The notes under the pieces are model-generated. The model saw nothing but the letters and a program-made list of their open reading frames with translations, was not told where the DNA came from and searched no databases. Both the position numbers and the translations under genes were made by a program. From Alloyangia mangrovi (GTDB lineage: Bacteria; Pseudomonadota; Alphaproteobacteria; Rhodobacterales; Rhodobacteraceae): a stretch of 42,692 nucleotides of DNA. Where the stretch lies: NCBI RefSeq assembly GCF_002300555.2, contig NZ_NTHN02000048.1, positions 1-42,692 on the forward strand. The letters run 5' to 3'. This document shows, in pieces, positions 10,602 through 23,600 of this stretch; the stretch's first letter is position 1, and every line of letters starts with the position of its first letter.

Positions 10602-11774
10602 TTAGAGCCGCTCGATGGCGATGGCCGTGCCCTCGCCGCCGCCGATGCAGATTGCCGCCACGCCGCGCTTCAGGCCGCGGGTTTCCAGCGCGTTCAGCAG
10701 GGTGACCATGATCCGCGCCCCCGAGGCGCCGATCGGGTGGCCGAGCGCGCAGGCGCCGCCGTTGACGTTCACCACGTCGCGCGGCAGGCCCATTTCCTTC
10801 ATGAAGGCCATAGGGACCACGGCGAAGGCCTCGTTCACCTCCCAGAGGTCGACGTCCGAGAGCCTCCAGCCGATGCGCTCGAGCAGCTTGCGGGCGGCGG
10901 GAATCGGCGCGGTGGGAAAGAGCCCCGGGGCCTGCGCGTGGCTGGCGTGGCCGAGAATGCGGGCGCGGGGCAGGGCACCGGTCCTTTCGACACCGGCGAG
11001 GGTGGTGAGCACCAGCGCCGCGGCACCGTCGGAGATCGAGCTGGAGTTGGCCGCGGTCACCGTGCCGCCGGTGCGGAAGGCGGGCTTCAGATGCGGGATC
11101 TTCTCGGGCCGGGCGCGCGCGGGCTGCTCGTCGCGGGTGATCACCTCCTCGCCGGTGCGGGCGTGCACGGTGACCGGGGTGATCTCGGTCTCGAAGGCGC
11201 CGCTGCGCTCGGCGTCGAGCGCATTGGACAGCGAGGCGAGCGCGTATTGGTCCTGCGCGTCGCGGGTGAACTGGAAGGCCTCGGCGCAGTCCTCGGCATA
11301 GGTGCCCATGAGGCGCCCCCGGTCGTAGGCGTCCTCGAGCCCGTCGAGAAACATGTGGTCGACCACCTCGCCGTGACCAAGCCGGGCACCGCCGCGCATC
11401 TTCGGCAGCAGGTAGGGGGCGTTGGTCATGCTCTCCATGCCGCCGGCGACCATCACCTCGACCTGGCCGAGCGCCAGCCGGTCCCAGGCCATCATCGCCG
11501 CCTTCATCCCCGAGCCGCACATCTTGTTGAGCGTGGTGGCGGGGACTTCCTCGCTGAGACCGGCCTTGAAGCCCGCCTGGCGCGCCGGGGCCTGGCCCTG
11601 TCCGGCGGGCAGCACGCAGCCCATCAGCAGTTCGTCGACCGCCGGACGCCCGGCCTCGGCCAGCGCCGCGCGGATCGCCGCGCCGCCGAGCTGCGCGGCG
11701 CTGAGATCGGACAGCATCCCCTGGAACCCGCCCATCGCGGTGCGCGCGGCACCGGTTATCACCACATCCTGCAT
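10602..11774 (-). CDS. Acetyl-CoA acetyltransferase (thiolase)
   Basis: A 390-residue thiolase catalysing reversible condensation of two acetyl-CoA to acetoacetyl-CoA, or cleavage of longer 3-ketoacyl-CoA. The nucleophile is Cys86 in LNKMCGSGMKA. His346 in GHPIGASG and Cys376 in CIGGGEG complete the active site. Glu replaces the more usual Gln of the GGGQG signature. The start is set at 11774, where GGGAGGAGAG precedes the ATG; the upstream frame extension is not needed. Its promoter must lie in the 264-nt region shared with the divergent rbaV-like gene, which contains the 17-bp repeat array. Biosynthetic and degradative thiolases cannot be told apart from sequence alone. Confidence 0.93.
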   Translation of the reverse strand: MQDVVITGAARTAMGGFQGMLSDLSAAQLGGAAIRAALAEAGRPAVDELLMGCVLPAGQGQAPARQAGFKAGLSEEVPATTLNKMCGSGMKAAMMAWDRLALGQVEVMVAGGMESMTNAPYLLPKMRGGARLGHGEVVDHMFLDGLEDAYDRGRLMGTYAEDCAEAFQFTRDAQDQYALASLSNALDAERSGAFETEITPVTVHARTGEEVITRDEQPARARPEKIPHLKPAFRTGGTVTAANSSSISDGAAALVLTTLAGVERTGALPRARILGHASHAQAPGLFPTAPIPAARKLLERIGWRLSDVDLWEVNEAFAVVPMAFMKEMGLPRDVVNVNGGACALGHPIGASGARIMVTLLNALETRGLKRGVAAICIGGGEGTAIAIERL

Positions 11775-11944
11775 GCTCTCTCCTCCCAGGGTCACGGCAC
11801 CTGAATACCGAATGGTAAGGATTGCCGTCTAGCGTGCTGAGAATATGGGCGCTTGCCGGGGTCTCGGCAATGCGTCGGAAATTTTGGCGCTGCTCCGGGT
11901 CCTGGTCCATGTGCGGCTCGGGCCGGTCGTATGCCTGCAGGGAA

Positions 11945-12046
11945 AAGGACGTCCGAGAGACAGGGATGTTCGAGAGACAGGGGTGTCCAAAGGGCAAGGA
12001 CGTCCATGAGGTAAGAACTTCCAGGAGGTAAGGACTTCATGAAGCT
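11945..12046 (+). repeat. Six tandem degenerate 17-bp repeats in the rbaV-like leader
   Basis: Units start at 11945, 11962, 11979, 11996, 12013 and 12030 and keep an exact 17-nt period. Unit 1 is AAGGACGTCCGAGAGAC, unit 2 AGGGATGTTCGAGAGAC, unit 4 AAGGACGTCCATGAGGT, unit 5 AAGAACTTCCAGGAGGT. Units 1 and 4 share the 8-bp palindrome GGACGTCC. Unit 5 supplies the AGGAGG ribosome site and unit 6 contains the start codon of the downstream gene. The array lies between the divergent thiolase and STAS genes. It is not CRISPR-like because there are no spacers. Confidence 0.8.
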
Positions 12047-12404
12047 GACGTGCCGGGGAACGGAGCCGCAGGTCATTTCCGTTGGCGAGCCGCGCATCGA
12101 CGCGGCCGTGGCGATCCAGTTCAAGGACGCCATGCGCGCCATGCTCTCCCCCGAGGCGGAGCGGGTGATCCTCGATTTGTCGCAGGTCGAGTTCATCGAT
12201 TCCAGCGGGCTCGGTGCTGTCGTCGCGGTGAAGAAAGCCATGGGAGCGTCGCAACGACTCGATCTCGCCGGGCTCACGCCGATGGTGGACAAGCTTTTCC
12301 GCCTCACCCGGATGGACACGATCTTTGCGCTCTACCCGACGCTGGTCGAGGCCGAGGCGACGGAGGTCGCACCTCTGCCTCTCGGGGGCGGATCCGGGGG
12401 CTGA
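12039..12404 (+). CDS. rbaV: STAS-domain anti-sigma factor antagonist, RbaV/RsbV-like
   Basis: A 121-residue STAS protein of the SpoIIAA/RsbV type. In this family the unphosphorylated form binds and removes an anti-sigma kinase, and phosphorylation of a conserved serine blocks it. The site here is Ser55 in FIDSSGLGA. VILDLSQVEFID is the typical preceding strand. The start codon lies inside the last unit of a 17-bp repeat array; AGGAGG is 10 nt upstream. Six nucleotides separate its stop from the HATPase gene, which marks a two-gene operon. In Rhodobacter capsulatus the like-ordered pair RbaV/RbaW affects gene transfer agent production; orthology here is likely but rests on arrangement and motifs. 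Confidence 0.85.
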   Translation: MKLTCRGTEPQVISVGEPRIDAAVAIQFKDAMRAMLSPEAERVILDLSQVEFIDSSGLGAVVAVKKAMGASQRLDLAGLTPMVDKLFRLTRMDTIFALYPTLVEAEATEVAPLPLGGGSGG

Positions 12405-12419
12405 AGGGAGATGGCGGCC

Positions 12420-12905
12420 ATGGCGCTTCGCTCGGTCACCGGGGCCGGCGCGCCGGAGCCGGGCTGCGCGGCGCTGGTGCTGGAACTGTCCAGCAGTACC
12501 GCCGAGGTGCGCGCGGCGCTCGGGCAGGTGACGGAGGCGCTTGGCCGCGGCGGGTATTGCGCCCACGCGCGGAACTGCGCCGAGCTGGTGCTGGCCGAGG
12601 CGCTCAACAACATTGTCGAACACGCCTATGCCGGTCAGGGCCCCGGGCGCATTCGGCTGTGGCTGCAGGGGGTGCCCGGGGCGATCCGCCTCGAGCTGCG
12701 CGACCGGGGGCGGCCGATGCCGGACCTGGCCCTGCCCGAGGGACGGCTGAAGCCGCTGGGCCACGACGGCGACCTGCCCGAGGGTGGCTTCGGCTGGTAC
12801 CTGATCCGCCGTCTCGCGGCAGAGGTGAGCTACCGGCGCGTCGGCGGTGAAAATGTCCTGCGGCTCGTTCTGGAGAGCGGACCTGCGGCAGGCGACCGGG
12901 GCTGA
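12420..12905 (+). CDS. rbaW: HATPase anti-sigma serine kinase, RbaW/RsbW-like
   Basis: A 161-residue GHKL ATPase of the RsbW/SpoIIAB type, which binds a sigma factor or other partner and phosphorylates the STAS antagonist. The N box is EALNNIVEHAY at about 60-70, the D-x-G box is DRGRPMP near 95, and the nucleotide lid is GGFGWYLIRRLA near 122. ATG at 12420 is preferred because AAGGGAG lies 9 nt upstream; for the ATG at 12411 the same motif would touch the start codon. No phosphatase partner (RbaY/RsbU type) or sigma factor gene is in the window, so the output must be encoded elsewhere, as in Rhodobacter. Confidence 0.83.
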   Translation: MALRSVTGAGAPEPGCAALVLELSSSTAEVRAALGQVTEALGRGGYCAHARNCAELVLAEALNNIVEHAYAGQGPGRIRLWLQGVPGAIRLELRDRGRPMPDLALPEGRLKPLGHDGDLPEGGFGWYLIRRLAAEVSYRRVGGENVLRLVLESGPAAGDRG

Positions 12906-20680: not shown

Positions 20681-23600
20681 ATGACGGTCTACGCGGTGAC
20701 GCAGGAGAACTGGAACGATCCGGCTTTCTGGGCGGCGATCTCCGAAAGCTCCGCGGGGCACACGCTCGACCTCTCGGGTTTGCCGGACGGGGTGGAGGTC
20801 GAATTCGACCAGGCCAACCTCGTGCTCTTCCTCCACCACGACGGCGGCAGCTTCCTGATCGGCGATACCACGGCCCCGGCGGTCTTTGACGCGCAGCTCG
20901 GCGCGGGCACCGACTGGAGCTATTTCTCCCTGCTCACCGGCGGCGCGGGCGACGACACGCTGGGCGGCGGCGAGGGCGATGACACGCTCTGGGGCGGAGC
21001 CGGGGATGACAGCTTCCTCGGCTATGCCGGGGACGACCTGATCTACGGCGGCGACGGCGGCGACACGGTGCATGCGGGCTCCGGGGCCGACACGGTGATC
21101 GGCGGCGCGGGCGACGATTCCCTGTCCGGAAACGAGGGGGACGACTGGCTGGAGGGCGGCGCTGGCAGCGACTCGCTCTACGGACAGGAGGGGGACGATT
21201 ACGTCAGCGGCGGCGAGGGCGACGACACGCTCGAGGGCAACGAGGGCAGCGACACGATCCACGGCGGCGCGGGCAACGACTGGATGCGCGGCTCCTACGG
21301 CAACGATGAGCTCTGGGGCGGCACCGGCGACGACAGTTACTGGGGCGGCTGGGGGGGACGATACCTTCCACATCGAGAACGACTTCGGCAACGACACGGT
21401 GGATGCCGAGGGCGTGGACGAGGTGCTGGGCGACACGCTCGACCTGTCGCTGGTCACCGACGCGCTGCGCATCGATCTGGGCGACATCAACCCCGAGACC
21501 GGCAGCGTCACCGATGGCACGAGCACGCTGATCTACGACGAGGTCGAGCACATCATCCTCGGCGCCGGAGTGGATACGCTGGCGCTGGCGGATGGCGGCG
21601 GACTCGATGCGGTGCAGGGCTTCGCGGCGCCGAGCGATCTTGGTGGCGGGACCTATGCGGGCAATGACCTGCTGGACGTCTCGGGGCTGACCGATGCCGA
21701 GGGCAACCCGGTGGACGTGGGCGACGTCACGGTGAGCGATACGGCCGGCGATGGTACGGGGGATGCGGTGCTGAGCTTTCCCGGGGGCGTGGCGCTGACG
21801 CTGGTGGGCGTGCAGGTTTCCGAGGTCTCCTCGGCGGCGCAGCTCGAGGCGATGGGCATTCCCGCGGCCGGCGAAGAGGCCGCTCCGGTCGATCCAGTGG
21901 AGCCGGTTGATCCGGTTGACCCGACCGATCCTGTTGACCCGGTGGAGACCACCGGCGCGTTGCCGCAGATTGACGGCGCCTTCGAGTTCGAGGCGACGAT
22001 CCGCTTCGATGAACTTTCCGCCGCGCAGGGACAGAGGGTCTTCGAATTCGGCGGCGCGGGCGAGGACCGGCTGACCTTTGGCCAGCTCGGCCCGAGCAAT
22101 GCGGTGCTCTTCGAGATCGTTCAGGATGGGGCAACCTGGCTCATCGTCGCCGAGGATGCCATCACCGAGGGCGAGACCGCGACCTGGACCGTGGGCGTCG
22201 ACGAGACCGGCTTCATGTACATCGAGAAGGACGGCGTGCAGATCGCCGAGGGCGACGGCGTCGTCCCCGCCGACAGCGAGCGGCTGACCAACACGCTTGG
22301 CGGCAGCGGCGAGACGGCGCTGGTCGGCGCGATCTCGGAGGTGTCGATCAGCCAGGCGGCTGGCACCTGGGTCTCGGACGGCAGCGGCGGTGAGGGTGCC
22401 GGCGGCGACGGCGGGGAAACTGAGGGGGAGACCGGCGGCAGCACGGGTCCGACCGATCCCACGGACCCTGCCGATCCGACGGTTCCCGGCGAGACCACCG
22501 ACCCCGATCCGGACAGCGACGGGATCCCGCAGATCGACGGCGCCTTCGAGTTCGAGGCCACGCTGCGCTTCGACGACATCAGCGGCGCGCGCGACCAGCG
22601 GGTCTTCGAGTTCGGCGGCGCTGGCGAGGACCGGATCACCTTTGGCCAGCTTGGCCCGAGCAACGCGGTGCTCTTCGAGATCGTGCAGGACGGGGTCACC
22701 GCGCTCATCGTCGCCGAGGACGCGATCACCGAGGGCGAGACGGCGACCTGGACCGTGGGTGTCGACGAGACCGGCTTCATGTACATTGAGAAGGACGGGG
22801 TGCAGATCGCCGAGGGTGACGGGATCGTGCCCGCGGGAAGCGACCGGCTAGAGAACCTGCTCGGCGGCTCCGGCTCGGCAACGCTGCAGGGCGAGATGAG
22901 CGACGTCAGCCTCGTACAGGGGGACGCGATCTGGACGCCCGAAGCGGGCACGCAGGTCTATGAGCCCGGTGAGACGGAGGAGGACGCCGACGCGAGCACG
23001 TCCGATCCTGTGCTGCCCGAGCTGACCGACGACGACCTGCCGCAGATCGGCGGGGCTTTCGAATTCGAGGCCGAGCTGCGCTTCGACGATCTCGACGATG
23101 CGCGCGACCAGCAGGTCTTCGAGTTCGGCGGCGCGGGGGAGGACCGGATCGCCTTTGGCCAGCTCGGGCCGAGCGATGCCGTGGTCTTCTCGGTCAGCCA
23201 GGGCGGCTACACGCATTACATCGTGGCCGAGGATGCGCTCACCGAAGGCGAGACGGCGAGCTGGACCGTGGGCGTGGATGAAACCGGCTTCATGTACGTC
23301 GAGAAGGACGGCGTGCAGATCGCCGAGGGCGACGGCGTGGTGCCCAATGGCAGCGCCCGGCTGACCAACCTGCTCGGCGGCAGCGGCAACAGCGCGCTGC
23401 GAGGGCAGATCAGCGACGTCAGCATCACCCAGGAGGGCAGTCACTGGTGGCTCGACGAGGCGGGCGAGGCGCATCTCGAGCTTCATGGCACCGAGGAGGA
23501 CGAGCTGCTTGAGGGCGGGGACGGCGACGACACGCTCTGGGGTGGGGGCGGTGACGACACGCTGACCGGTGGCGACGGCGATGACACCTTCGGTGTCAGC

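Follow-up and report, generated by a model that had tools for sequence, protein, structure and literature searches.

Genomic context of the array

The window, by which we mean the whole analysed stretch of 42,692 nt of Alloyangia mangrovi DNA, carries a tandem repeat array at 11945..12046 (plus strand) between two divergent genes, an arrangement already described in an earlier note made from the letters alone. Upstream of the array lies a thiolase gene on the minus strand (10602-11795), and on its other side lies an rbaV-like gene for a STAS anti-sigma antagonist on the plus strand (12039..12404), which matched PF01740 (5.1e-14) and TIGR00377 (56.2 bits; cut-off 53.45). The latter is followed on the same strand by an RsbW-like gene with a HATPase_c_2 domain (12411..12905; PF13581, 4.6e-23), here called rbaW-like, which the RsbW models of NCBIfam matched below their cut-offs. 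With a STAS domain scoring over its curated cut-off and an adjacent HATPase_c_2 gene, the first gene of this pair is a putative member of the rsbV/rbaV class (predicted antagonist). The rbaV-like protein was matched in 68 of 101 genomes (that of the window and 100 relatives) and in all 20 genomes examined of the genus. In three loci of genus members (L019, L020, and L025), an apparent long insertion was seen close to the N-terminus of RbaV; the ATG of these loci nonetheless keeps a distance of 65–66 nt from the conserved element described below.

The gene name was taken from Rhodobacter capsulatus, for which a RbaV/RbaW partner-switching system has been described (PMC3999984, available excerpts). 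According to these excerpts, rbaV and rbaW occur together and encode STAS and HATPase domains there as they do here, whereas a repeat array such as the one found here goes unmentioned in them (PMC3999984).

Structure of the repeat array

Tandem Repeats Finder (TRF), unit alignment, and lag identity with shuffles were used to describe the array. It consists of six 17-nt units in exact register with zero indels, starting at 11945, 11962, 11979, 11996, 12013, and 12030. The lag-17 identity was 61/85, the highest in the window among lags 5–59 and followed by a value of 60 for a repeat at 20938; the best lag fraction was 0.72, a value that 2000 mononucleotide shuffles of the array never approached (highest 0.48). 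The exact 17-nt period over six units that the earlier note had claimed was thereby confirmed. TRF itself resolved only two sub-arrays, 11954-11986 and 12003-12042, with a score of 59 each. Elsewhere in the window, 27/54-nt repeats were observed at 20938-21349 and 23513-23587, the unit of which presumably resembles RTX-type coding repeats.

Neighbouring units were identical at 10–14 of 17 positions, with units 1-2 and 4-5 being the most similar pairs (14/17 each). Over all pairs the range was 7–14, so that the earlier figure of 10–14 shared positions is valid for neighbours only. The non-adjacent units 1 and 4 shared 13/17 positions, and both contained the palindrome GGACGTCC, as had been reported. 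The statement that the last two units supply the Shine-Dalgarno (SD) sequence and the start codon also held, the SD AGGAGGT (12023-12029) being located in unit 5 and the ATG (12039-12041) in unit 6.

The array against its genome background

As a background, 40 stretches of 20 kb were sampled, amounting to 800 kb of the 5.53-Mb genome that carries the array. Since 22 of the 343 TRF rows in this sample scored at least 59, the array is unexceptional by TRF score alone. A lag scan of the same 800 kb (periods 8–60) gave six rows that reached 56/85, two of which (64 and 63) surpassed the array's 61; their periods (15, 15, 57, 18, 15, and 33) were all multiples of three, as expected of coding repeats. 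Among arrays comparable to it, the 800-kb sample contained none whose period was not a multiple of three. Within its genome the array is thus a genuine and uncommon feature, distinguished by its exact register across six units combined with a period that is no multiple of three.

The search for single units across the genome, which the earlier note had proposed, revealed no enrichment: the 17-mer pattern with up to three mismatches occurred 53 times, three of these inside the array, vs. 70 times for the reversed control. The whole-array query gave seven genome matches, and below an E-value of 0.9 the array matched only itself. On these grounds a dispersed regulon operator was rejected. A known RNA family was also dropped as the identity of the region, as Rfam covariance models gave no matches in 11700-12500 at E-values up to 1.

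A conserved upstream element and a long leader in one clade

A 41-nt element was found upstream of rbaV and of the array (11801..11841, plus strand), described by a weight matrix built from 34 sites and with a consensus of roughly yTGmATACCGAATGGTAAGGAwTGCCGTCTAGCsT. It contains the inverted repeat TACC-N4-GGTA, followed at its right end by a -10-like TAnnnT hexamer, because of which the element is the putative promoter (or operator) of rbaV; the array would then be located between this promoter and the rbaV start codon. With a matrix trained on the same loci and without a null, the best element site had a positive score in 61 of the 67 loci; of the 13 loci in which no divergent thiolase was detected, four had an element score above 30. 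Loci L033-L035, which duplicate genomes G005, G015, and G013, were excluded from this scoring as well as from the unit-removal and further-loci survey described below.

All 13 other genus members had a distance of 65–71 nt from the element start to the ATG; the start codons were chosen by the analyst, and the element of one member (L013) was weak (−1.8). In seven species (L001-L007), that of the window included, this distance was 167–521 nt. For 14 of the 20 genomes of the genus, a tree was built on the DNA of the thiolase gene and the rbaV-rbaW pair; G003, G007, G008, G016, G018, and G019, all of which have the short spacing, were left out. In this 14-species tree the seven long-leader species formed one clade (support 100/100), in which the window species and G009 were sisters (100/99) and G015 was next to them (98/98).

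The leaders of the clade were compared using one genome per species and loci taken from the best 30 places, with orientation corrected. Past a block common to all seven, which ends in ATGGGCGCTTG (11845..11855, plus strand; ATGGGC[AG]CTTG across the clade) and contains an ATG, they were mostly unalignable. Only four of 21 leader pairs had a best local match that was reached by at most 4/200 shuffles; three of these four involved the window, with the match before the array in each. The stretch 5′ of the array in the window (11842..11944, plus strand; the 5′ end being a putative one) is mostly species-specific, and its best local matches to relatives were short (16 nt in L002, 22 nt in L004, and 19 nt in L003) and all before the array. 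All seven leaders were G-rich (0.36–0.46 G).

The repeats near the rbaV start differed from species to species within the clade. TRF rows were obtained in five of the seven leaders, with periods of 17 in the window, 10 in G009, 17 with 11 and 33 in G015, 12 or 6 in G010, and 14 in G005, and each leader's best TRF score was reached in 0–6 of 300 dinucleotide shuffles; the leaders of G014 and G013 gave no TRF rows. The sister G009 carries GAACTTCAGGAGGCAAGGACGTAATG, a single counterpart of units 5-6 without the 17-nt repeat. G015 has a different 17-nt array that also runs into the rbaV start codon (lag-17 identity 48/81; fraction 0.59 vs. a shuffle maximum of 0.49). A common origin of these two arrays was considered and found unsupported, since the best local match between the leaders, taken as the best match only, lies upstream of both.

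Outside the clade, no 17-nt array before rbaV was found in 23 relatives (L008-L030) or in 37 further loci (L036-L072; best 29/51), some of the latter possibly being the same species as loci among the former. Two-copy 17-nt rows in L018 and L019 were not counted as leader arrays because they precede the element, towards the thiolase. The earlier note had named missing periodicity upstream of rbaV in relatives as a result that would speak against its reading. This result was obtained in part, with 0/23 and 0/37 loci, but two of the seven species of the window's own clade do have a 17-nt array.

Predicted folding and ribosome-site accessibility

A hairpin was predicted at 12005..12041 (plus strand), formed by pairing of CATGAGGT with ACTTCATG; within it, the SD word GAGGT is paired to ACTTC. 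This hairpin of units 4-6 would cover both SD and AUG. In the fold of 11996-12046 it was not exceptional (z −1.28; 21/200 shuffles as good), and it was also present, one pair shorter, in the fold of the whole array. The whole array folded better than dinucleotide shuffles (z −2.67; 3/200), and the 265-nt leader was not unusual (z −1.24; 22/200). The GGACGTCC of unit 1 is also predicted to be able to pair with that of unit 4. A two-codon mini-ORF (ATG AGG TAA) was observed at 12006-12014, in the frame of rbaV and inside units 4-5.

The SD of unit 5 (12023..12029, plus strand) showed the strongest anti-SD pairing in 11900-12060 (9-mer at 12022, −11.6 kcal/mol), calculated with what we take to be the tail of the 16S rRNA. 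In the full leader, removal of unit 1, 2, or 3 gave a predicted AUG accessibility of 0.12–0.28 vs. 0.22 for the intact leader, whereas removal of unit 4 raised it from 0.22 to 0.43 and removal of the SD-bearing unit 5 left a predicted SD accessibility of 0.01. With short suffixes, unit 5 plus the tail gave a predicted AUG accessibility of 0.56, which fell to 0.00 once unit 4 was added. These predictions suggest a possible role of units 4 and 5 at the ribosome-binding site (RBS) and little effect of units 1-3.

Two known modes of regulation were considered and dropped. Between 20 and 45°C the SD accessibility stayed at 0.42–0.44 and that of the AUG at 0.06–0.25 with no clear rise, and this flat in silico prediction argues against an RNA thermometer. 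Binding of CsrA to the GGA words of the units was dropped because no match to a CsrA gene (PF02599) was found in the array-bearing genome (a 99.35% complete draft), control matches being obtained in 3/14 genomes.

Origin of the array and alternative explanations

We consider the array to be probably a young minisatellite, specific to its lineage, that belongs to the 5′ leader of the rbaV-rbaW messenger and arose around the RBS through slippage, and assign this reading a probability of roughly 0.6. In the ancestor of the seven Alloyangia/Salipiger-type species, the distance between element and start codon would have expanded from 65–71 to 167–521 nt, and the added stretch would have become weakly constrained. 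Short tandem arrays may then have been produced by slipped-strand duplication, independently from one species to another. In the species of the window the duplicated segment would have been the RBS neighbourhood, so that the upstream units would be decaying copies of its purine-rich word, the last two units still acting as a working SD and start; any effect on translation would be passive or small. The spacing, the clade in the tree, the poor alignability of the leaders, the single counterpart in G009, and the differing periods were counted in favour of this reading, as were the greater likeness of neighbours 1-2 and 4-5 and the lack of a genome-wide excess of the unit. Counted against it was the same period of 17 in two of the seven species, with both arrays reaching the start codon, which would be a mildly surprising coincidence. 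Likewise counted against it were the 13/17 identity of the non-neighbouring units 1 and 4 (not a prediction of simple stepwise slippage), the whole-array fold, the loss of AUG accessibility on addition of unit 4, and the G-richness of the seven leaders, which could have been selected.

The earlier note had also suggested a site whose copy number tunes the switch, competing ribosome-binding decoys, or an operator array. We regard as rather unlikely a translational leader tuned by copy number, in which the units would either serve as SD-like standby or decoy sites or occlude the RBS by pairing among themselves, so that unit gain or loss would set the RbaV dosage. SD-like words do recur in the units, the pairing of unit 1 with unit 4 and the hairpin over SD and AUG provide candidate structures, and the predicted shifts upon removal of units 4 and 5 or addition of unit 4 also speak for it. 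Set against this, the values for RBS accessibility did not fall outside those of 21 other loci, most of which lack arrays, loss of unit 1, 2, or 3 hardly altered that of the AUG, and neither the hairpin alone nor the 265-nt leader folded unusually well. Decoys found weak support: there were 33 SD-like 9-mers vs. a shuffle mean of 20.5, yet 11/200 shuffles had as many. A broader version, according to which the rbaV leader of this clade would be a hypermutable dosage control, with new purine-rich arrays arising again and again at the RBS, in two cases with a 17-nt period, and unit gain and loss tuning the antagonist and through it the partner switch, seems improbable to us. If it were true, such a leader would be a contingency locus of the minisatellite type with a global regulator, and not a surface protein, as its target, and the partner-switching regulator would become a contingency locus if the unit number varied between strains.

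The two remaining alternatives appear less probable still. The clade-conserved ATG at 11845 might start an upstream ORF, or else extend RbaV at its N-terminus in some species, which would place the array in a coding or overlap region. The block ATATGGGC[AG]CTTG was present in 7/7 clade species, and the ATG frame had four stops in 526 codons vs. 8/523 and 9/521 in the two others (mean of mononucleotide shuffles 11.5 stops, P 0.008). In G015 and G005 no stop interrupts the frame before it joins rbaV in phase, and the frame of G013 ends at a stop that overlaps the ATG of rbaV. However, a third-position GC bias was absent from this frame, the peptides diverge beyond about nine residues, and the frame stops after 54 codons in the window (11845-12009), 39 in G009, and 16 in G014. 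Formed post hoc, once the frames had been inspected, this putative coding leader is a weak rival and a decidedly improbable one. We give the least credence of all to the idea of a tandem operator, bound by a protein that would control rbaV, the divergent thiolase, or both. The palindrome in two units and the divergent flanking genes would suit such an operator, but the palindrome is confined to units 1 and 4, the closest sister lacks such an array, and the array lies downstream of the conserved 41-nt element. The genome-wide results (53 occurrences vs. 70 in the control, with the array its own only match below E 0.9) did not support it either.

Any function of the array is less well supported than the long rbaV leader specific to one clade. 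The array itself looks like a ribosome site that was naturally duplicated to form a minisatellite, and related species have other repeats there.

Comparison with known leader repeats

The array consists of head-to-tail copies with above-chance periodicity, one of the features by which leader VNTRs and phase-variable repeats are recognised, and no comparable array was recognised in a search of open-licence PMC papers, covered as partial texts. Among leaders with repeats, that of cssA in the meningococcus contains a tandem repeat, and the AGAT repeat of Moraxella catarrhalis belongs to a gene that we take to be uspA2. The G tract of UspA1 and the AGAT repeat of M. catarrhalis are given, in the excerpts available, as the two repeats between promoter and start codon that were studied by experiment (PMC4679880). 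The array would have a similar position, between its putative promoter and the start codon; the M. catarrhalis units are of 1 and 4 nt and strain-dependent in number, whereas the units here are of 17 nt, degenerate, and known from one genome. In marine Beggiatoaceae, a single genome contains 169 sets of direct repeats of the heptamer TAACTGA, and they resemble the array as short direct repeats just 5′ of start codons that overlap the expected RBS (PMC4679880, same excerpts). They differ from it in that a canonical RBS is rare beside them, while the array occupies a single locus and holds a strong SD within the repeat (PMC4679880). Meningococcal fHbp and cssA are thermosensors, and fHbp, like the array, has copies of a repeat able to pair with the RBS, namely two copies of 6 bp (PMC4999090, available excerpts). 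The fHbp repeats lie within the ORF (PMC4999090), and the predicted RBS accessibility of the array is unchanged between 20 and 45°C.
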